Source of the DNA: a virus
Reading direction: 5' to 3' (one strand)
IMG/VR virus record: IMGVR_UViG_3300009379_000003
Coordinates: 1-37,870 of that record
DNA: 37,870 nucleotides
Shown: positions 3,378 to 32,770 of the stretch, piece after piece
Layout of the letters: each line of letters opens with the position of its first letter
Numbering within the stretch: the stretch's first letter is position 1
Notes under the pieces: generated by a model
What the model was told of the DNA's origin: nothing
The model's database searches: none
Seen by the model: only the letters and a program-made list of their open reading frames with translations
Translations under genes and position numbers: made by a program

Positions 3378-3965
3378 TTACCACTGAAAATACCCACCGG
3401 GGCGGTTTTCCTGAATGATAAATTCATTGTTAGGATTATATTCATTGAGTTGTTTAATAATGTAATCCCTGTCTATATCTTCACCGGAAAGATCTGGTAT
3501 AATTGCTCTCCAGGTAAACATCATATAATTACTGCTGACACATTTTGCTGTACCGAGAGGAGTCACTCCAACTGTAAAAATATCGGCCATCAGATTTTCC
3601 TGAATGATTTCAGCATCTACATTCAAATATATTCTGAATATTTTTTTATTCAAAGCTGTTGAGGGAGGAGTATAGATAAGGCTTCTCTTTATTTGCAGAC
3701 GTGCTTTAAATTCATCTTTTAATTCGCCAGGCCGGGGATAAAGATGGTATTCCCGGCCAAGCCGTTTCAGTGAAGTAAAATCAGCATATTCAATAAACAT
3801 TTGATTGTATATGTAATTAATTACACCACTCAATTGATCAGAAAAAAAATTGAATATAGCAGATAGCAGTTTATACCATATGCTGTCTTCACCATTTTTT
3901 CTGATAGTAAATCTGGTATTTCTCCAGAGCATTTTTATGAAATTTAGATTATACCTATTCAGCAT
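3378..3965 (-). CDS. Baseplate protein, Mu gp48 / tail protein I-like
   Basis: About 195 aa. The order baseplate J then this gene then fibre is the Mu gp47-gp48-gp49 order, and the sequence has the layout of that wedge family: an aromatic N-terminal half followed by a compact C-terminus ending PGGYFQW. I start at ATG 3965, because the longer frame would begin with TTG at 3971. The gene overlaps the end of the J-like gene by about ten bases, which points to translational coupling. In contractile tails this protein links the baseplate wedge to the fibres. Confidence 0.72.
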   Translation of the reverse strand: MLNRYNLNFIKMLWRNTRFTIRKNGEDSIWYKLLSAIFNFFSDQLSGVINYIYNQMFIEYADFTSLKRLGREYHLYPRPGELKDEFKARLQIKRSLIYTPPSTALNKKIFRIYLNVDAEIIQENLMADIFTVGVTPLGTAKCVSSNYMMFTWRAIIPDLSGEDIDRDYIIKQLNEYNPNNEFIIQENRPGGYFQW

Positions 3966-7020: not shown

Positions 7021-7399
7021 TCCTCAGCTCCTGTGCCTTTTTAATATCACTTTGCCTTAACAGTGGTGGTATAATAATTGTTTCACCCGGTATCAGATGC
7101 TGGTAATTATTTTTTGTTGCAATCTCTGTCCAGTGATGAGTGGGGGATCCATAATAATTAAGTGCCAGGGTATACCAGGTATCGCCATCAATAACAGTAT
7201 GATTCAACGGTTCTGTATTGAGATTTATAATTCTGATTTTTTTACCTGCAGGAATATCCCAGGGATCTGAACCGAGCTGATTTTGATTATAATCATATAT
7301 AATCCGCCATAAATGCCAGCGGAGATAAAACATGTTGGCAATACGGTATATTGTATCATCAGAGGTTGTTATGTATTCATCCATTATTGAAAAGTGCAT
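7007..7399 (-). CDS. LysM-containing baseplate/tail protein
   Basis: A 130-aa protein whose C-terminal half is a LysM-like fold: DTWYTLALNYYGSPTHHWTEIATKN followed by LIPGETIIIPP. Such short LysM proteins (tail protein X type) staple the hub to the tail tube in contractile-tailed phages. The N-terminal half is aromatic-rich with YRIANMFYLRWHLWRIIYDYN, followed by DIPAGKKIRI, which may be a second degenerate LysM repeat. It shares one base with the upstream gene. Confidence 0.78.
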   Translation of the reverse strand: MHFSIMDEYITTSDDTIYRIANMFYLRWHLWRIIYDYNQNQLGSDPWDIPAGKKIRIINLNTEPLNHTVIDGDTWYTLALNYYGSPTHHWTEIATKNNYQHLIPGETIIIPPLLRQSDIKKAQELRNVCS

Positions 7400-7851
7400 T
7401 AGTATTCAACCTCAAAATCATAGTCATCATCTGACACAAGATTGATTGTCATACGTTCCGTTCCTTCCTCACCTGCGGATTCAGGATGAGAAAAGTCACC
7501 CCAGACAACTCTGGATATTCCATAAATGTCTGTCTTAGGACAATTGATTGATATAGATCTTTCTTTTTCCCATTCAGTAATCAGTTTTTCGAGTTCTTCT
7601 GTAACATCATCATATGTTCTTTTGTGAATTATAGCATGAACGGTTATTTTGTAATCATCAAATCCAATCAGTTCCTTTACTGTCCCGGACATTCCCGACA
7701 CAGCAGTTTTGATAATTTTTTTCCCACCTGTAATATCAACAAGAACTTCCATTGGGAATTTATAGGCTCCAAGTTTTAATGGCACCAGTTCTGGGCTGAA
7801 ATATTGGAGGCTGCTTCCCTGAAATTTAAAACCAACATTAAGCATTTTCAT
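7399..7851 (-). CDS. Tail/baseplate protein, DUF6046-like
   Basis: A 150-aa protein with the pattern of a small tail protein family: KLGAYKFPMEVLVDITGGKKIIKTAVSG, then TVKELIGFDDYKITVHAII and a C-terminal GISRVVWGDFSHPESAGEEGTE. This resembles the DUF6046 family (my recollection, moderate confidence). It takes the slot between tape measure and LysM protein that in Mu is held by gp43. It may bridge tube and hub. Overlaps the tape measure stop by 14 bases. Confidence 0.6.
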   Translation of the reverse strand: MKMLNVGFKFQGSSLQYFSPELVPLKLGAYKFPMEVLVDITGGKKIIKTAVSGMSGTVKELIGFDDYKITVHAIIHKRTYDDVTEELEKLITEWEKERSISINCPKTDIYGISRVVWGDFSHPESAGEEGTERMTINLVSDDDYDFEVEY

Positions 7852-10036
7852 ACCTCAGGACTTCATTCATAATTGCCTCAGCAATTTTACTGGAAAGATT
7901 ATCCAGATTATCAGTGGTGGATCCACCTGATAAGTTCAGCTCACCAATAAGGTTTTTTATGTTTAAAATAACACCTGCAGATGATTTATGTCCTGCACCT
8001 GTAGTTCCCGGGATTTCATCACCTGTCATTGCGTCCATTGTCTTTTTCATGTAGGGAGCGACTGCAGGTGTTTTTTTGGATTCCTGCTGGATACCTGTGT
8101 TGAATGTTCTGATAAGTGATTTGCCGGAATAAGTAAGTTTAGAAAAAGGCCCTTCTTTGGCATCTGATTGAGGAAATAAATTTCCTATAAAACCAAATAC
8201 ATTTTTTACATTATTTTTTAGCCAGGATGCTTTGGATGCAATCCCTTCCCATAAAGTACTTAAAATTCTGGATCCAGCATTTTTTACATAGCTCCATATG
8301 TTGCTAAAAAATCCATCCATGCTTGAAATAACAGACCCCCATAAACCTGAAAGCCACTCTCCGGTTCCAGACCAGCATCCTTTAATCCAGTCCCAAGCTG
8401 CACCAGCTTTTTCAGCAATCAAATCCCAATATTTAACAATACCATATATTGCCACTCCAAGAGCAACAATTCCGGCTATAATCCATACCAACGGACATCC
8501 CCATAAAGATGTATTCAACACCCATTGAGCAGCAGCTGCAATTTTAGAAACCCCGGCAGATGCAAGTGTCGCAACTTTGTGTGCTGACAATACAGCAGTA
8601 GCTTTTGCTAATCCACCAGCTTTAATTGCGGTGCTCCATATCCATTGCGCACCGGCTGCAATTCTGGAAGCTCCAGCAGAAGCAAGTGTCGCAACTTTAT
8701 TTTTTATTAGTGCCAGGGTACTTTGCTTTGTTGCACCACCTGCAACCATCTGACTTAAAGCATATAAACCCGCTGCGCCTTTCAACATCATTATTCCACC
8801 CCCGGCAATTAAAGCCACTGATCCCAGGGCAATAGTACCACCGACCCATTTAGTCAGGGTAGGATGTTTCATAGCTATTTCATTCAACCATTTTATTCCG
8901 CCTTTCAGCAAATCAATAAATGGCCCAACTGCCGCACCCATGCCTCCGCCCAGAGTACTTTTTAAATTGTTCCATGTGTTTCCAAGCGTTTTTAATTGTG
9001 TATCAATATTATCAATATTAGCAGCTGCCATCGAATCCATGAGTTTTGTTCCTTTGGCATTTCTCAATGCATCAATATTGGTTTTTAACTTACCAGTTTT
9101 ATCCCACAGATTGTTAATTAGTTTCATCGCTTCATCAGATCCAAAAGCTTTTTTCATATCAGCAGCTTCAGAAGCTTCTATTGTGTCACCATATTTCAAT
9201 TTAAGTTTATCTAAAATACCAACAGTTGGTAATAATTTGCCCTTAGCATCGACAAACGACATGCCAAGTTTTTTACCTGCTTCAGCTGCTTTTGATACAA
9301 ATGCTTTAAATCCTGTACCGGCTTCACCTGACTGCATAACATTTTGGAGGATTCCAAGTACATTAAATTGTTCTGCCATATCATAGCCAGCGACAGAGGC
9401 GGCACCTGACACACTTTCAATAGCTTGTTGCATTTTACCGCCATCAGTCTTATACATCTGGACAGCAAAAGATAGGGAATTTCCTATCTTTTTACCAAAA
9501 TCCTCATCACTGAGATTTGAATATAACTTTTTATTTTGATTATAAATTGTACCAAAAAGACCCGCAAATTGTTTTGTATTACCTTTAGTAGCTGTTGCCG
9601 CCTTAGCTACTATCTCAGTAAATGTACCAATTGATGAATTATCTATTGTTTCAATACCGGATTTTATGTCATAAGCTGCATCAAGAAATTCATTCCTGAT
9701 TACTGACATAGAACTGCTTGCATTTGCAGCAGACTCAGATATTTTAGATATTGCATCATCACCTAAATTAAGAGATTTCAGACCTGATTTAAGCACACTT
9801 GTTTCTCGGTTAGCATCAATCATGTTCATTGTGAACATTGCCATACCGGTACCAGCAGCAAGCATCCCCCCACCAATTTTTAAAGACTTAGAACTGTTTT
9901 CAAACTTCTTGACACCTCCATCGATTTCTTCCAGTTTCGATTTCAGTTCATCAGCATTCCCTGTAATTTTTTTAAAAGGCCCACTGATAAGATCAGTTAA
10001 TGACAGTCTGCTGCCTAATTTATATTCACCACTCAT
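7838..10036 (-). CDS. Tail tape measure protein
   Basis: This 732-aa protein has the composition of a tape measure: N-terminal helical region, long alanine/glycine-rich hydrophobic centre (about 365-430 and 505-545) that can cross the host membrane, and a Gly/Ser-rich C-terminus. An internal duplication places KVATLASAG-S-IAA-AQW at 447-466 and again at 487-506, exactly 40 residues apart. At about 0.15 nm per residue the length implies a tail near 110 nm. It follows the frameshifted chaperone gene with a one-base gap, the usual arrangement. Confidence 0.92.
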   Translation of the reverse strand: MSGEYKLGSRLSLTDLISGPFKKITGNADELKSKLEEIDGGVKKFENSSKSLKIGGGMLAAGTGMAMFTMNMIDANRETSVLKSGLKSLNLGDDAISKISESAANASSSMSVIRNEFLDAAYDIKSGIETIDNSSIGTFTEIVAKAATATKGNTKQFAGLFGTIYNQNKKLYSNLSDEDFGKKIGNSLSFAVQMYKTDGGKMQQAIESVSGAASVAGYDMAEQFNVLGILQNVMQSGEAGTGFKAFVSKAAEAGKKLGMSFVDAKGKLLPTVGILDKLKLKYGDTIEASEAADMKKAFGSDEAMKLINNLWDKTGKLKTNIDALRNAKGTKLMDSMAAANIDNIDTQLKTLGNTWNNLKSTLGGGMGAAVGPFIDLLKGGIKWLNEIAMKHPTLTKWVGGTIALGSVALIAGGGIMMLKGAAGLYALSQMVAGGATKQSTLALIKNKVATLASAGASRIAAGAQWIWSTAIKAGGLAKATAVLSAHKVATLASAGVSKIAAAAQWVLNTSLWGCPLVWIIAGIVALGVAIYGIVKYWDLIAEKAGAAWDWIKGCWSGTGEWLSGLWGSVISSMDGFFSNIWSYVKNAGSRILSTLWEGIASKASWLKNNVKNVFGFIGNLFPQSDAKEGPFSKLTYSGKSLIRTFNTGIQQESKKTPAVAPYMKKTMDAMTGDEIPGTTGAGHKSSAGVILNIKNLIGELNLSGGSTTDNLDNLSSKIAEAIMNEVLRYENA
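8519..8698 (-). repeat. 120-bp-period internal duplication in the tape measure gene
   Basis: Two copies of a 20-residue helical module, about 85 percent identical, are spaced by 40 codons (120 bp) in the hydrophobic centre. The nucleotide copies also match closely (both contain GCAAGTGTCGCAACTTT), so the duplication looks fairly recent. Such repeats let tail length change by unequal recombination. Confidence 0.75.
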
Positions 10037-10037
10037 T

Positions 10038-10567
10038 TTAACCGCCGAAAAGTTTCGATATCAATTCCGCCTGATTCTTTAGTTCTCTCTGCTCCAGATA
10101 CAGAGCGTCAATTTTGAGCCTGATCTGGTCTGCAAATTCAAGTGAATCAAAATCAACCAATGGGAAAAATTTTCTGGCCAATACCTCTTCACCGACGCCC
10201 AGATCAAGCTCATTCTGCCGCTCAGCTACAACTTTTTTATGGTTACCTGCTGAGTAACACCTGCCGCATCTACTAACTTGTCTGCAATTGGAACAACAAT
10301 TCCAGAACGCTGTTCAAGAATTTTTGAAAATTCTTGAGGTTCAGGATACAGGATACATTGCAGACAAAGAGCTGTGTTTTTATCCATATTAGCTCCCGTA
10401 GTAGCTTCAGCAATTTTTAAATGATCCGTTGTTGGAACTTTAAAAATCCCATCAAAAGGATCATCCGCAAGCTGTATCATTATAATTTCAGAATTTTCCT
10501 TTTTCCAATTTTCAATCTCGGGCTGAAGTTCAGTCAGTTCTTTGTTATCAATTCTGTAGTTAATCAT
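10038..10567 (-). CDS. Tail assembly chaperone, -1 frameshift product
   Basis: The 113-aa upstream frame ends just before a second open frame in the -1 register. The shift at the A-AAA-AAG heptamer (10232..10238) joins 112 residues to a 64-aa extension (V-V-A-E-R-Q-N-E-L... ending KLFGG), giving about 176 aa. The extension stops at 10038, one base before the tape measure ATG. This is the classic layout of lambda G/GT-type and Mu gp41-type chaperones, in which the long form bridges tape measure and tube during assembly. The extension is helical and acidic, as usual. The frame is seen directly; frameshifting efficiency is not. Confidence 0.85.
10226..10567 (-). CDS. Tail assembly chaperone, short form
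   Basis: 113 aa, starting MINYRIDNKELTEL, ending T-I-K-K-L at a TAG. It lies between the tail tube and tape measure genes, where Mu encodes gp41. The sequence contains TGANMDKNTALCLQCILYP, a segment seen in phage tail chaperones of the ClpX-adaptor-like fold only by position. SD AAGGAG lies about 11 bases upstream of the ATG. The short form should coat the tape measure protein during tail assembly and would be made in large excess over the frameshifted form. Confidence 0.8.
   Translation of the reverse strand: MINYRIDNKELTELQPEIENWKKENSEIIMIQLADDPFDGIFKVPTTDHLKIAEATTGANMDKNTALCLQCILYPEPQEFSKILEQRSGIVVPIADKLVDAAGVTQQVTIKKL
10232..10238 (-). promoter_or_regulatory. Slippery heptamer A-AAA-AAG
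   Basis: On the coding strand the zero-frame codons are ATA AAA AAG TTG TAG. The heptamer A AAA AAG is the strongest known bacterial -1 slippery sequence. Sliding back by one base gives AAA AAA GTT GTA GCT, which opens the 64-codon extension and avoids the TAG. Downstream bases GCTGAGCGGCAG are GC-rich compared with the surroundings and could add a stimulatory hairpin. Confidence 0.85.
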
Positions 10568-10586: not shown

Positions 10587-11009
10587 TTATAATGGTACTT
10601 CTATTGGCATGGCCAGATTCTTAAAATCAATATCTACCATGAAAGTAGTATCATCGACCTTGCGTTTATGCCCAATTTTCTCAATCTGAACCAGAGGTAA
10701 AGTTTCTTTCATTTTTTTACCATTTGGTTTTTCATGAAGTCCTACAATTGGAAACGGTGGCAGATCCAACGGATCTCCGCCAAATGGTGCGGCAGCTATC
10801 ACCAGCTTTTCATACTCTTCAAGAGAAATGACCATTTTACCTGATGATTCTTTTTTACCTTTTCCATAACCAACCATTTCATTCCCTTTACCATATGAGC
10901 CTTCGACTTTTTGATTTCGGTCATAATCTATTGACTCAATACCAATCAGCGTCCGGGCCAGAATAGTTGCCTGGTAATTTTTCCATGAATAATTTTCAGT
11001 AACACCCAT
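10587..11009 (-). CDS. Tail tube protein
   Basis: A 140-aa protein directly after the sheath gene, the constant position of the tube gene in contractile-tailed phages. The sequence is beta-rich with YGKGNEMVGYGKGKKESSG and a C-terminal VDIDFKNLAMPIEVPL strand. Tube proteins form stacked hexamers through which DNA passes. An AGG/GGAGG site lies upstream of the ATG. Confidence 0.75.
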   Translation of the reverse strand: MGVTENYSWKNYQATILARTLIGIESIDYDRNQKVEGSYGKGNEMVGYGKGKKESSGKMVISLEEYEKLVIAAAPFGGDPLDLPPFPIVGLHEKPNGKKMKETLPLVQIEKIGHKRKVDDTTFMVDIDFKNLAMPIEVPL

Positions 11010-11020
11010 GCATATGCCTC

Positions 11021-12409
11021 CTATACAGCCTGTTTGTATCCAACATCAATGGTAATCTTTTCCAGTGTGTTGGTTTTATATAAGTGAAGCTCTCCAACAA
11101 GTTCACCCTCAGACAAATCCTGATCTGTATCAATATCAACTTCATGACCAACAATCTCAGCTTCACCTGCAATTTCCATCTCGCTGGAGATAGCCACATC
11201 AATCTCAGCTATTAGAGACTCAATGCCGGAAGTACCGCCTTCAGCAACTCCATTAACAAAAGGCATTATCTTATCATAAGCAAGCCTTCTGGCCTTATCA
11301 GCTGGTCTGAGTTCATGAATTGTCTGATAATCAGAATCTTCAGGACTCATAAGATGATCTTTCTTGATATATATGCCAGGCCACTGGTCATATTTTACTG
11401 CAAGAATTATATTAGCATCATCTATGTCAGATACAAAATCCTGCAGACCATCATTCCAGAATTCAATTTCTGTACCTGTAACAGATCTTAAATCCCGGAC
11501 AAAACCAGGATGAATATTTGTTCTGATTTTAGATAAATTTGCACAAAGCATAATGGCAGCTGATTTATAATCAGTATCATCTCCATACTTGATACGTCCG
11601 CCAACCACAGCAATTTTTTTATCCTGAAAAAGGCGGCATTCATCAATCATTGTCTGAAGATAGTCATTAGTTTCACCTGTGGTTTTTTTTGGGTATTCAA
11701 GGATAAAACCGCTGATAAATATTCTGACAGACTCAAAATCAGCTTTTTTTGATGCAACTGATTCCCAGAATGACCTTTCAAATCCTCCAACAATATGGAT
11801 AAATTTAAATGCTTTCTGTACAGGATCATAACCGGCTCTTGCAGCATCAATCGCTGTAAGAAATTTTGCAGCTGAAGCGGTTGGTGCAGATGTTGTAAAA
11901 CTATAGGTATCGCCTGCAACGAATGTACCAGTGCCGAAAGCTACTGAAACTCCTGCTTCCAGAGTAATTGTTGTTGTTGAGGCTGGTGTTGTATATACAC
12001 TGGACCAGTTAACACCTCCATCAGGTGACCATCTGTATTTTGCCGTTTCATGAGCTCCACCCAGAATAATTTCAATAATAATATTTCTGGTACCTGTAAC
12101 TGTTCCTGTAGCTGTACAAACTGATGTACCGGTTCCAGTTTTAGTTACAGATCCGATTTCTCCGGCTGTATCATTATCAGGCCGGAGTGCAAAGCATTTT
12201 ATACCGCCTTCATTAAAATGCCTTTTTATGGCATCAACGAGTGGGCCTTTTTCAAATTTTGCAACGGCTTCACGATAACTGTTTATTTCATAAACAGCAT
12301 CTTTAGTACCTGTTTCTGCTACACCAATTTTAAGGTGGAGGCCATCAACACCGTTTTTCCCGCGGCCAAGCCCGCCATCTTTTAAATTAATCTCTACTGG
12401 ACTGTTCAC
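11021..12409 (-). CDS. Tail sheath protein (DUF2586-like)
   Basis: 462 aa. The N-terminus (SPVEINLKDGGLGRGK) and the body with CRLFQDKKIAVVGGRI and a C-terminal helical domain fit Mu-type sheath subunits, which contract to drive the tube into the host. Residues about 88-178 form a Thr/Gly-rich beta domain (GTVTGTRNIIIEI, YRWSPDGGVNW) inserted in the otherwise conserved core, probably surface exposed. The start is GTG with AGGAGG five bases upstream; the ATG one base earlier is out of frame. Confidence 0.85.
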   Translation of the reverse strand: MNSPVEINLKDGGLGRGKNGVDGLHLKIGVAETGTKDAVYEINSYREAVAKFEKGPLVDAIKRHFNEGGIKCFALRPDNDTAGEIGSVTKTGTGTSVCTATGTVTGTRNIIIEIILGGAHETAKYRWSPDGGVNWSSVYTTPASTTTITLEAGVSVAFGTGTFVAGDTYSFTTSAPTASAAKFLTAIDAARAGYDPVQKAFKFIHIVGGFERSFWESVASKKADFESVRIFISGFILEYPKKTTGETNDYLQTMIDECRLFQDKKIAVVGGRIKYGDDTDYKSAAIMLCANLSKIRTNIHPGFVRDLRSVTGTEIEFWNDGLQDFVSDIDDANIILAVKYDQWPGIYIKKDHLMSPEDSDYQTIHELRPADKARRLAYDKIMPFVNGVAEGGTSGIESLIAEIDVAISSEMEIAGEAEIVGHEVDIDTDQDLSEGELVGELHLYKTNTLEKITIDVGYKQAV

Positions 12410-21188: not shown

Positions 21189-22814
21189 TTATCCATAATA
21201 GGGATCCACATCCGGAGTAAACAGGCCTCTGCCGATTTGAAATGATATAAAGGCCGAGTTCATCGCCATTCCGAAGTGATTTGCAACATTCTTTTTATAT
21301 ACTGTTTTTTCGTATCCATTTTTATCCAGTAGCTTCTCTTTCTCAAGGTTTTTGATCTGAGATTTAAATTTTTCATATAATTCAAGTTCATCAGGCTTCA
21401 GCATTTTTGGATTAGGAAATTCAAAAAAGCCTTCTTTCAACATATCGGCCATCTCATCAATACTGGTTGTCCGATCATGTTTAACAACAGGGATGCTGTC
21501 TTCACCGTCCTGTTCATCCTTCCTGATCAATGACTGAGCATTGAAATATTGTATTGCTCCCCATCCAGGGTATTTTTTGCATAAGTGCTTACCCAGCGGT
21601 TTATAGGGCATTGCATCTATTACAAAATAGCTCCGGTACAGTTCAATCAGTTCCTCAAATCTGGCTTTATCAGTTGCCAGTACTTCTTCAATATGAATCA
21701 GCCGTAATCTTTTTCCTGTCCAGCCCCAGGCAGTAACATGACAAATGTCTCCAACATCAATTCCCATAAATGAGCTGAATGCAGATTTTTCAAATCCGGA
21801 TCTGTTTGGACTCTGAGATGCCTCAATCAGTGCATCTGTTATGGGGCACATGTCTGAATCTCTGTAGGGTATTCCTATAATTGATATATGAAAGTTTTTC
21901 TTTTCAGATGTTAATATTGCATTAGTAAATTTATCATAAATAAATTTTCCATCAATTGTACTACTAAAAAGTTGGCTTTCCTGATATCCCCTGTGATCCT
22001 TGCTTCTTGACGGATGTTTTGGAACCCATTGACATTTTTCCGGATTCAGTAATTTCTTACATCTTGTACAGCCGATCCATGCCCTGAATTTATCTCCTTT
22101 TCCTGAACTGAAAAGATTCTTAGGGAAACTCTCAACAACATTGTTCCAGCGTCCGCATGATGGACATTTCAGGAGCAAGTATCTTTGATCCGATTTTTTA
22201 AAAGATCTGTTGATTCCATAGTCCGGTTTTGATGGCTGTGAAAGTTCCATAATAAATTTAAATATTGAATGAAGCAGACGGTCTTCAGCAAAAATCATAT
22301 TCTCCTGATCAGCCTCATCCAGTTCATCTTTTACAATAATATCAGCATCAATACTCTTTACTTTCCGTTTAGTCCATACTCCCCGGAAATACAGGGATGA
22401 CTGCCCAATCTGTTTCAGCCCCAAATTATCAGCTTTTTCATAGCTCATCTTTGAACTAAGATATTCAGAGTTGTCAATCATCGGATTTGCCCGATCCTGA
22501 GCAAAATCTTTAACATCTTCATCTGTCGGAAAATAATAAACTGCTTTAAGTGCCTTCCTGTCCAGAAGCCAGAGTACCTTTATTAGACAGTAAGTTGATA
22601 TCCCTATCTGCCCGGCCTTCTGATGTGTCTCCCTGGGTACTTCAGGCATTGTAAACAATTCTCTGAGATATTCATGTCCATCCAGAGAAAAAGGCACCAA
22701 TTTTCCGCCTGCCATTAGACTTATATTTTTCATTGCCCATTCAAGAAGTCCATACTGTTTGAACAGTTTGGATCCCACCTGAGAAGCTATATCAAAAACA
22801 TTAATCTCTTCCAT
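21189..22814 (-). CDS. Terminase large subunit (Mu gp28-like)
   Basis: 541 aa. The ATPase part has a Walker A-like segment QKAGQIGIST (65-74), a Walker B IIVKDELDEAD (159-169) and a zinc site C217-x2-C220...C249-x2-C252. The nuclease part has SFMGIDVGD (Asp 353) and YFVIDAMPY (Asp 400), the acidic positions of the RuvC-like fold. It packages DNA into proheads by headful, cutting host DNA next to the phage ends in Mu relatives. Overlaps the gp27-like gene by 14 bases. Confidence 0.85.
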   Translation of the reverse strand: MEEINVFDIASQVGSKLFKQYGLLEWAMKNISLMAGGKLVPFSLDGHEYLRELFTMPEVPRETHQKAGQIGISTYCLIKVLWLLDRKALKAVYYFPTDEDVKDFAQDRANPMIDNSEYLSSKMSYEKADNLGLKQIGQSSLYFRGVWTKRKVKSIDADIIVKDELDEADQENMIFAEDRLLHSIFKFIMELSQPSKPDYGINRSFKKSDQRYLLLKCPSCGRWNNVVESFPKNLFSSGKGDKFRAWIGCTRCKKLLNPEKCQWVPKHPSRSKDHRGYQESQLFSSTIDGKFIYDKFTNAILTSEKKNFHISIIGIPYRDSDMCPITDALIEASQSPNRSGFEKSAFSSFMGIDVGDICHVTAWGWTGKRLRLIHIEEVLATDKARFEELIELYRSYFVIDAMPYKPLGKHLCKKYPGWGAIQYFNAQSLIRKDEQDGEDSIPVVKHDRTTSIDEMADMLKEGFFEFPNPKMLKPDELELYEKFKSQIKNLEKEKLLDKNGYEKTVYKKNVANHFGMAMNSAFISFQIGRGLFTPDVDPYYG

Positions 22815-30254: not shown

Positions 30255-31101
30255 AGATGTAATTAAACACATGGATTTTGAGATACCTACAGAAATTATT
30301 GACGAAGAAACTGGTGAACAACTGCCGGCGGATCCTGAAAAAATAAATAAAGCCTTAATGCTGATTAGTGATGTACAGCACGATACTCTCAGAATGGCAA
30401 AAAATATAGGAATGTTTTTTGAAGAGAGACTTTACCTTTATGTAGGACTTACAAAAACAGAGGCAGCACAAAAATGTTTTGGACTACATATTGATACAAT
30501 CAGAAAGTTTATCCGAATTAATCAGACATTCGGCGATCAAATTGACCAGTTTATGCATCTGGGTGTAACAAGAATGGATAAACTAACAGGTCTACCGGAA
30601 GAACAAAAACAGGAATTGCTTCAGCAACAATCAATAACTCTGGATGATGGGTCAGTAATAAGCATTAAGGATCTTAAGGAAATTAAAACATCTGATCTGG
30701 AAAAAACCCTCAAAGCTGAAAGGTTAAAAAGTTCAAGGCTGAATGTTCAGAACACAGAAATGAAAGAAGAATATGAAGCAGAAATAAACAATCTCAAAAC
30801 AGAAAATCAGCATCTTAACAACCTGATAGACATCCCTGAAGATGAACAAAAGTTTCATAAAAAAATTACAAAACTAAATGAAGCCCGGCATAAAATCTAT
30901 GAAGCCCAGGCAAACATTCATGCCGCATTTCTTAACATACATCAGATTCAACTGGATAATGACAATAAATCAATCGTATCTGAAGTTGAAGGCTTTATGA
31001 TAGCAAACGCAAAACGTTTGCTCGACCTTGAAGCTGAGTATGGAACTCAACTGGGATACTATAAAGAATCGCTAAAAACCATGGCCGGTGAACCTGCATA
31101 G
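30244..31101 (+). CDS. Coiled-coil early protein before the transposase gene
   Basis: 285 aa from ATG 30244, with AAGGAG 8 bases upstream. The N-terminal 110 residues contain KALMLISDVQHDTLRMAKNIGMFFEERLYLYVGLTKTEAAQKCFGL, resembling DUF3102-like helical regions in phage and plasmid proteins, with an HTH-like part (GLTKTEAAQKCFGLHIDTIRKFIRIN). The rest (about 160-235) is coiled coil. Precedes the transposase as an accessory gene does in Mu-like phages; role unknown. Confidence 0.6.
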   Translation: MGNKDVIKHMDFEIPTEIIDEETGEQLPADPEKINKALMLISDVQHDTLRMAKNIGMFFEERLYLYVGLTKTEAAQKCFGLHIDTIRKFIRINQTFGDQIDQFMHLGVTRMDKLTGLPEEQKQELLQQQSITLDDGSVISIKDLKEIKTSDLEKTLKAERLKSSRLNVQNTEMKEEYEAEINNLKTENQHLNNLIDIPEDEQKFHKKITKLNEARHKIYEAQANIHAAFLNIHQIQLDNDNKSIVSEVEGFMIANAKRLLDLEAEYGTQLGYYKESLKTMAGEPA

Positions 31102-31114
31102 TATGGAGAAACCA

Positions 31115-32770
31115 ATGTCAAAGATAACACCAATAGAAGCAAGATCATATTATGAAGAATATCTGAATTGCAAATCTAAATTTGAACGCGGAGAATTTAT
31201 CCGGAATTTGTCAGTATCTCTGAATGTTGATAAAGCTACAATACACAGATCCTTCCAGAGATTCAAAAATGGTGAGCTTACAACTAAACGATCTGATAAA
31301 GGAAAACCCCGATTTAATGGGGTTACACAAGAACATGCAAAGCATTATGCTCAACTGGTAATTGCTGCCAAACTACAGTTGGCAACAAAAGATGAAAAGA
31401 CAGGGGAAACCGGGCGGATAGTTAAAGCATTGTATAATGCCGGTCAATTGCCTTTTGTCATTCCAACTTCAACAATGAACCGCTGGCTCAATCAGTTCGG
31501 CTATTCATACAAACAAATCAAATCTTATCAGGAAAGTACTGGTGTGCGTCTGATGACCGATGCACCCAATCGCTGGTGGTTTGTGGATTCTTCTGTATCG
31601 GAATTATACTATCTTAATCGTAAAGGTCGAATTATCAGAGATGCATCCGGGATTATAACAGATAAAAATCACCGTGAAGAACGCCTTACAAAAAAAGGAC
31701 TGAAAAAACTTTTGATATTTGCCGCAGTTGATCTTTATTCAGATGCCTACTGGGTCAATGGATATATTACACCTGGTGAATCAGCCACTTCATGGCTGAT
31801 GTTCTTTATGGATGCATTTGCGCAGAAAGCGGATCCGAAAAATCCTTTTAGAGGAATTCCTCAAAACATTTATTCAGACAGAGGCTCAGGTCTGAAAAAC
31901 CAGCAAATGACTGATATGTTTGATTCACTTGGAATTAAATTCTGGGATCATACTGCAGGTAATGCTAAAGCCAAGGGCCGTGTTGAGGCTCGTATAGGTG
32001 CATATAAAAATACAATAGAGAGATACCTGAAGTTTGAACAAATCGACAGCCTTGAGCGATACAGGGAACTGACTCAAAAGATGATAGTTGCTGATAATAT
32101 AAAAAAAGGACATTATGCACGATGGATGGAGATACACCAAATCCCTGAACAGCTAAAAGAATTTGATCAATCGCTAAGATCAAAAGTTGGGCATAAGATG
32201 ATTGAAAGGAAGGTCGGAGCATATGGAACTGTATCATTAGAAGGTACTGAATATTTTGTCAGCAGACGGTTAAATGGCGAATGGGTTTCAATTTACAGTT
32301 TGTTTAATGATAAGCTAAAGGCCACTGATAGGTTTGGAAATACCTATGAGCTAACAGATACAACACATCAGCAGCGGTTAATGGGAAAATATAAAGCTGA
32401 GAAAAAAACAGATTATGACAGAGAACTTGAAGACATTAGTGAAACCGGAAAAATTCTGAGACAGCAGTTGAAATCTGAACACTTCCTGGATGAAACACCT
32501 GAAAACCTTGTCATTTTTGACCGTAAAGGAAAGGACGTTGAAGTCACATCACCTTTTGATTCTGAAAAACTAACTACATCAGAATCAGCATGGTACCAGG
32601 TCTATAGATCCACAGGATATTCAAAGGCATCAATACCGTCACATATTACAGATAAGATTGATACTATATTTGATTTTATGCTGCAAACAGACGGAGAAAT
32701 AAATCCAGAAAAATTTACTGAAATTCTGGAAATAATAACAGATACAATAAGGGAGGCTCAGGCGTTATGA
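31115..32770 (+). CDS. A: DDE transposase, MuA family
   Basis: About 551 aa from ATG 31115 (GGAG six bases upstream; a GTG at 31088 is in frame). Residues from about 10-65 contain an HTH (SLNVDKATIHRSFQRFKNG). The catalytic rve domain has Asp 158 in NRWWFVDSS, Asp 255 in IYSDRGSG and Glu 291 in AKGRVEARI, a D-x96-D-x35-E spacing like retroviral integrases and shorter than the 55 of Mu. A C-terminal domain (about 350-551) contains the segment GAYGTVSLEGTEYFVSRRLNGEWV and is followed by a tail that should contact MuB. It joins phage ends to target DNA. Confidence 0.93.
   Translation: MSKITPIEARSYYEEYLNCKSKFERGEFIRNLSVSLNVDKATIHRSFQRFKNGELTTKRSDKGKPRFNGVTQEHAKHYAQLVIAAKLQLATKDEKTGETGRIVKALYNAGQLPFVIPTSTMNRWLNQFGYSYKQIKSYQESTGVRLMTDAPNRWWFVDSSVSELYYLNRKGRIIRDASGIITDKNHREERLTKKGLKKLLIFAAVDLYSDAYWVNGYITPGESATSWLMFFMDAFAQKADPKNPFRGIPQNIYSDRGSGLKNQQMTDMFDSLGIKFWDHTAGNAKAKGRVEARIGAYKNTIERYLKFEQIDSLERYRELTQKMIVADNIKKGHYARWMEIHQIPEQLKEFDQSLRSKVGHKMIERKVGAYGTVSLEGTEYFVSRRLNGEWVSIYSLFNDKLKATDRFGNTYELTDTTHQQRLMGKYKAEKKTDYDRELEDISETGKILRQQLKSEHFLDETPENLVIFDRKGKDVEVTSPFDSEKLTTSESAWYQVYRSTGYSKASIPSHITDKIDTIFDFMLQTDGEINPEKFTEILEIITDTIREAQAL

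Follow-up and report, generated by a model that had tools for sequence, protein, structure and literature searches.

Frameshifting in the tail gene that lies just before the tape measure gene is known from numerous phages, among them lambda, P2 and Mu (Xu et al. 2004, as cited in the relevant parts of PMC2628397, PMC4378225 and PMC5009743). In lambda, a short chaperone (G) and a frameshift-extended one (GT) are encoded between the major tail protein and the tape measure protein, ribosomes slipping by -1 shortly before the first frame ends, and the section of PMC5009743 dealing with them assigns tape measure binding to the short form and tube recruitment to the long one. Mu, FluMu and P2 are contractile-tailed phages with a frameshift gene directly before the tape measure gene, as set out in excerpts of PMC2628397 and PMC4378225, and Mu is also a transposable phage. 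Shifts of -1, -2 or +1 in different phages are already described in that section of PMC5009743, and the authors of PRFect state (PMC10885494) that such shifts had previously been identified by manual curation only.

The locus described here has the same layout and lies in a virus record of 37,870 bases with 36% G+C, hereafter the window, whose features of interest are the following:

11021..12409, minus strand: tail sheath of the DUF2586 family (PF10758, E 1.6e-38; phrog_907 tail sheath, E 1.2e-46)
10587..11009, minus strand: tail tube protein, from position and profile (phrog_4579 'tail protein', E 3.6e-29)
10226..10567, minus strand: short tail assembly chaperone (G-like), 113 aa plus TAG stop (open reading frame; phrog_5128, E 3.2e-10; NF047505; predicted fold)
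10232..10238, minus strand: putative slippery heptamer A AAA AAG, read directly, with place and register matching those of relatives
10226..10228, minus strand: zero-frame stop TAG, one codon (TTG) past the heptamer
10041..10232, minus strand: -1 frame extension (T-like), 64 codons, predicted helical
10038..10040, minus strand: extension stop TAA, a single base (10037) before the tape measure ATG at 10036
7838..10036, minus strand: tape measure protein, 732 aa (PF10145, E 1.8e-20; phrog_28, E 6.3e-65; TIGR01760, E 1.2e-23)
at 3958: baseplate J
at 21192: GpA terminase
at 31088: transposase-like rve protein (PF00665, E 4.4e-5, below the family cut-off)
at 32767: AAA ATPase

The genes of the window are those of a transposable, Mu-like phage whose tail is contractile. 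By profile matches, the order on the minus strand is sheath, tube, the 113-aa chaperone frame and tape measure, so the chaperone gene lies between the tail tube and tape measure genes, as G/GT does in lambda. With a probability of about 0.93, judged from sequence, the locus would be the tail assembly chaperone gene of this phage, expressed with a programmed -1 ribosomal frameshift. Compared with Mu, whose shift is reported as -2 in the excerpts of PMC2628397 and PMC4378225, the window and most of its relatives would shift by -1; the likeness is one of layout.

The chaperone was modelled by AlphaFold from a 48-chaperone alignment with a pLDDT of 87, and its top three PDB matches in Foldseek were 3fgx, YqbN (3klu) and the HK97 tail assembly chaperone (2ob9), the best having an E of 1.4e-3. 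The VIA Z of the model is 12.1 to 3fgx, 6.3 to 2ob9 and 5.7 to 3klu; identity to the three structures is 8-17%, and a Z near 6, taken by itself, may reflect no more than a shared arrangement. A sequence profile also matches 3fgx (E 9.3e-29). The predicted fold is that of a tail assembly chaperone, mainly through 3fgx, a structure itself named only RBSTP2171. The identity proposed in the first-pass annotation, a tail chaperone, is thus borne out by its position between tube and tape measure, the 3fgx profile and the fold matches to 3fgx, 2ob9 and 3klu. Taken alone, the extension is predicted to be helical (AlphaFold pLDDT 85), and a fold search with it gave no significant match (best E 0.2).

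Regarding curated families, the best for the chaperone (10229-10567) is NF047505 (LIC_10177), with an E of 2.5e-11 and 43.6 bits against a cut-off of 100, so the protein is a relative and not a member. LIC is a prefix of Leptospira loci, so a spirochaete host for the phage is possible. Of the 48 sequences in alignment A4, 37 match DUF6848 (PF20941) at E up to 0.01, and the window is not one of these 37; the window protein itself scores 16.3 bits (E 0.015) against a gathering score of 27 and is not assigned to the family.

The chaperone frame ends in ...VTIKKL*, encoded by ATA AAA AAG TTG TAG on the minus strand, where A AAA AAG (10238..10232) stands in the X XXY YYZ register of a slippery site. 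Read in the -1 frame, the sequence continues as K K V V A E R Q ... L F G G *, with 64 codons after the two lysines, so that this second frame overlaps the chaperone frame and runs on to the tape measure start. Every number given earlier for this region is right: the coordinates, the 64-codon extension and the one-base gap to the tape measure gene. Most ribosomes would end at TAG and release the short chaperone, while a minority would slip back one base on A AAA AAG, both lysine tRNAs re-pairing on AAA AAA, and would add the 64 codons up to the tape measure start to give the long chaperone. By analogy with lambda G/GT, the short form would coat the tape measure protein and the long form, which is rarer, would recruit tail tube subunits via the extension; neither would stay in the finished tail. 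The lambda slippery site is G GGA AAG; the window phage differs from lambda in its contractile tail, its Mu-like character and the letters of its heptamer, the likeness again being one of layout.

The same A AAA AAG heptamer is used by dnaX of Escherichia coli (PMC3711429, in the part that covers it). The stimulators of dnaX are a Shine-Dalgarno-like element and a hairpin, neither of which is clear in the window, and its shifted product is the shorter one. Downstream of the window site, no stimulatory hairpin was found (z +0.04 to +2.18 over 25 stretches and +2.41 in the main test), and upstream only a weak AGG resembles a Shine-Dalgarno stimulator; an Rfam search of the window returned nothing at gathering scores. 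Because no hairpin was found in the window, ribosomes probably slip at a modest rate, for which a few to some ten per cent is a guess. Among the relatives described below, downstream hairpins with z below -1.5 occur in 15 of the 45 loci with a heptamer, and they are strong in L009 (z -8.1), L040, L060, L071, L081 and L050. The very stable predicted hairpin of L009 (about 7170-7245) follows an A AAA AAG, whereas the window has none despite a letter-identical site.

Relatives were reached mainly through the sheath. With the window chaperone as query, none were found in viral contigs, nor in phage records at E 0.01; the tail tube as query gave no relatives, and the sheath alone gave none in viral contigs and nine distant records among phage records. 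A sheath alignment (A1) with five distant phage sequences led to 60 viral loci; a closer one gave 23 in genomes of bacteria, chiefly Bacillota. The gene was then sought with a chaperone profile made from 19 open reading frames chosen by hand, that of the window included. Of 89 sequences, comprising 88 loci and the window, 78 gave a hit, and several of the 11 that did not are too short. From these 78 loci, three with too little downstream sequence were dropped, and 15 near-copies (over 80% identity in 300 nt) were removed from the remaining 75, leaving 60 dereplicated loci, window included.

An in-frame X XXY YYZ heptamer lies 10-24 nt before the end of the stop in 45 of the 60 dereplicated loci, window included, and all 45 have an open -1 extension of at least 44 codons. 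At control frame ends in the same loci, a heptamer occurs in 16 of 605 cases and a heptamer with a -1 extension in 7 of 605 (Fisher p 3e-49 for 45/60 against 7/605). In a tally where a locus with two heptamers can count twice, the commonest are A AAA AAA (12), A AAA AAG (8), A AAT TTG (7) and G GGA AAA (7), followed by A3T3A (3), T3A3G (3), T6A (2), T6C (2) and six singles. The letters thus vary freely while the register and the place persist; the ending of L009 is identical to that of the window, ATAAAAAAGTTGTAG. The 15 remaining loci comprise seven that use the +1 frame and eight (L008, L022, L032, L037, L042, L054, L059 and L075) whose open -1 frame goes with a weaker site (A AAA G, for example, or a run of T); one of these, L059, is at the same time the poorest match to the chaperone profile (E 0.003). 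Loss of the heptamer in homologues had been named as an observation that would speak against the frameshift, and what the homologues hold is 45 canonical sites, eight weaker ones and seven of the +1 type. The register kept across differing heptamers, together with the selected and homologous extension described below, supports the A-AAA-AAG site of the first-pass annotation as the likely point of the shift.

Frame transitions at runs of A can also arise when RNA polymerase slips, so that a mixed mRNA pool would yield the fusion, and the window does hold six consecutive A. This run is shorter than the An, n>7, linked to slippage in the pertinent part of PMC3711429, and the mixed heptamers of the relatives, such as A AAT TTG and G GGA AAA, allow tRNA re-pairing and not homopolymer slip. 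Transcriptional slippage is accordingly a very improbable source of the long protein.

A further question is whether the -1 frame is open by chance and yields no product. A AAA AAG is common in this A+T-rich window, with 19 copies on the strand of the gene and 12 on the opposite strand, so the heptamer by itself means little; a -1 frame as long as the observed one appears in 1.9% of 5000 dinucleotide shuffles. The case for frameshifting rests, for this reason, on the combination of features and on the homologues. The architecture is conserved, the extension is under selection in relatives, and its codon usage in the window is that of a real gene of this phage: the log-odds per codon are +0.269 in the -1 frame, compared to -0.577 and -0.530 in the other frames. 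Across 26 window genes, none of 416 off-frame windows scores as high as the extension, while 49 of 208 in-frame windows score equal or below it. A chance opening is the least credible of the alternatives considered.

The strength of selection was measured in relatives rather than in the window, because the nearest relatives have sheaths only about 30% identical to that of the window. For relatives' pairs with pN < 0.30 and pS > 0.05, the pN/pS of the extension in the -1 frame ranges from 0.10 to 0.57. In eight chosen close pairs, it is 0.10-0.31 in this frame versus 0.99-2.89 in the other two frames (one value being undefined), and purifying selection at the protein level on the shifted frame of the relatives follows from this restriction of low values to a single frame.

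As the window has no near relative, it is tied to these selected extensions through homology. By blastp among 53 peptides, its extension matches those of L071, a Paenibacillus ehimensis contig (39% over 59 aa, E 1.7e-7), L009 (39% over 49 aa, E 1.6e-4) and L068 (31%, E 0.018). Against a profile of 22 nearer extensions, it ranks top of 1054 six-frame pieces, though with an E of 0.041, and its 11.5 bits exceed the best of 2000 shuffles, which reach at most 8.5 bits; it was missed by a profile that mixed all 53 other extensions. The homology link of the window extension appears good, if not perfect, and it is the selection in relatives together with this link that indicates conservation in the shifted frame, as in a G/GT-type gene. 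In addition, phrog_8523, a family to which no function is assigned, has matches in 10 of the 21 extensions belonging to the nearer group, that of the window not being among them.

The extension might instead be a small gene in its own right, with translation beginning at an internal start codon or resuming past the TAG by re-initiation. The 16th and 23rd codons after the stop, both TTG and the first start-like codons of the window extension, could serve as starts, and in the four annotated relatives examined (Riverbug, MMP7, Mx4 and Mushu) a separate 'hypothetical protein' CDS is called there, ending at the stop of the shifted frame and joined to the chaperone in none. The window extension itself holds no ATG and no GTG; 19 of 54 -1 extensions lack ATG, GTG and TTG in their first 25 codons, and elsewhere such codons are scattered. 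A separate gene would, moreover, leave the conserved in-frame heptamer unexplained. An internal start is therefore considered unlikely, at odds of only a few in a hundred, and a -1 frameshift remains the preferred reading. The same annotated relatives bear on the earlier remark that the extension would be missed by automatic annotation, and the list of open reading frames of the window (at least 60 aa) holds nothing in the extension frame.

Seven of the 60 loci, from Thermus/Meiothermus-like and some other phages, carry the extension in the +1 frame: L002 (Riverbug), L003 (MMP7), L013, L015, L016, L029 and L044. Within the overlap, each of the seven carries a TTT C read in the zero frame, and so do seven near-copies or short loci examined (L011, L012, L014, L019, L023, L026 and L039). 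Six of the seven +1 extensions match a profile of 30 -1-frame extensions with E 1.6e-10 to 1.4e-8, and that of L015 reaches only E 0.004, a value that the best of 1000 shuffles surpasses (0.003). From these matches, it follows that one homologous extension would be reached by opposite shifts. Access to the +1 frame could be gained by a +1 shift, with re-pairing from UUU to UUC, or by a -2 slip, two routes that sequence cannot separate. Given the -1 heptamers on one side and the +1 frame at an invariant TTT C on the other, it is fairly likely that the direction of frameshifting changed within this one chaperone family while the product was kept. The chaperone tree is rough, the branch of the window being long, and the +1 group forms one side of a weakly supported branch (37/76), so that a single switch of direction is allowed by the tree rather than shown.

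It is this change of direction inside one alignable family, and not the diversity of shifts itself, that would be the part worth following. If true, the family would let the replacement of a recoding signal by its opposite be traced while the fusion protein is retained. The 60 loci amount to a series of naturally occurring slippery sites, some followed by hairpins and others not, which shift in two directions and all serve one homologous protein. Mu-like phages with a DUF2586 sheath would also gain, through this locus, a frameshift gene that has good support; among the papers searched, none paired DUF2586 with frameshifting and none mentioned DUF6848. Correct gene models matter here for the understanding of tail assembly and for finding tape measure genes.

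Two further observations concern the tape measure side of the locus. In Mushuvirus mushu Zape3 (L005; BK063464, from palaeofaeces), the N-terminal part of the tape measure protein lies at 7520-8185 in a frame other than that of the annotated CDS starting at 8185, which is what a disrupted gene or an assembly error would look like. In L007, L008, L009 and L010, a spacer of about 310-430 bases with no evident same-strand gene separates the extension from the tape measure frame, whereas in most relatives there is almost none.
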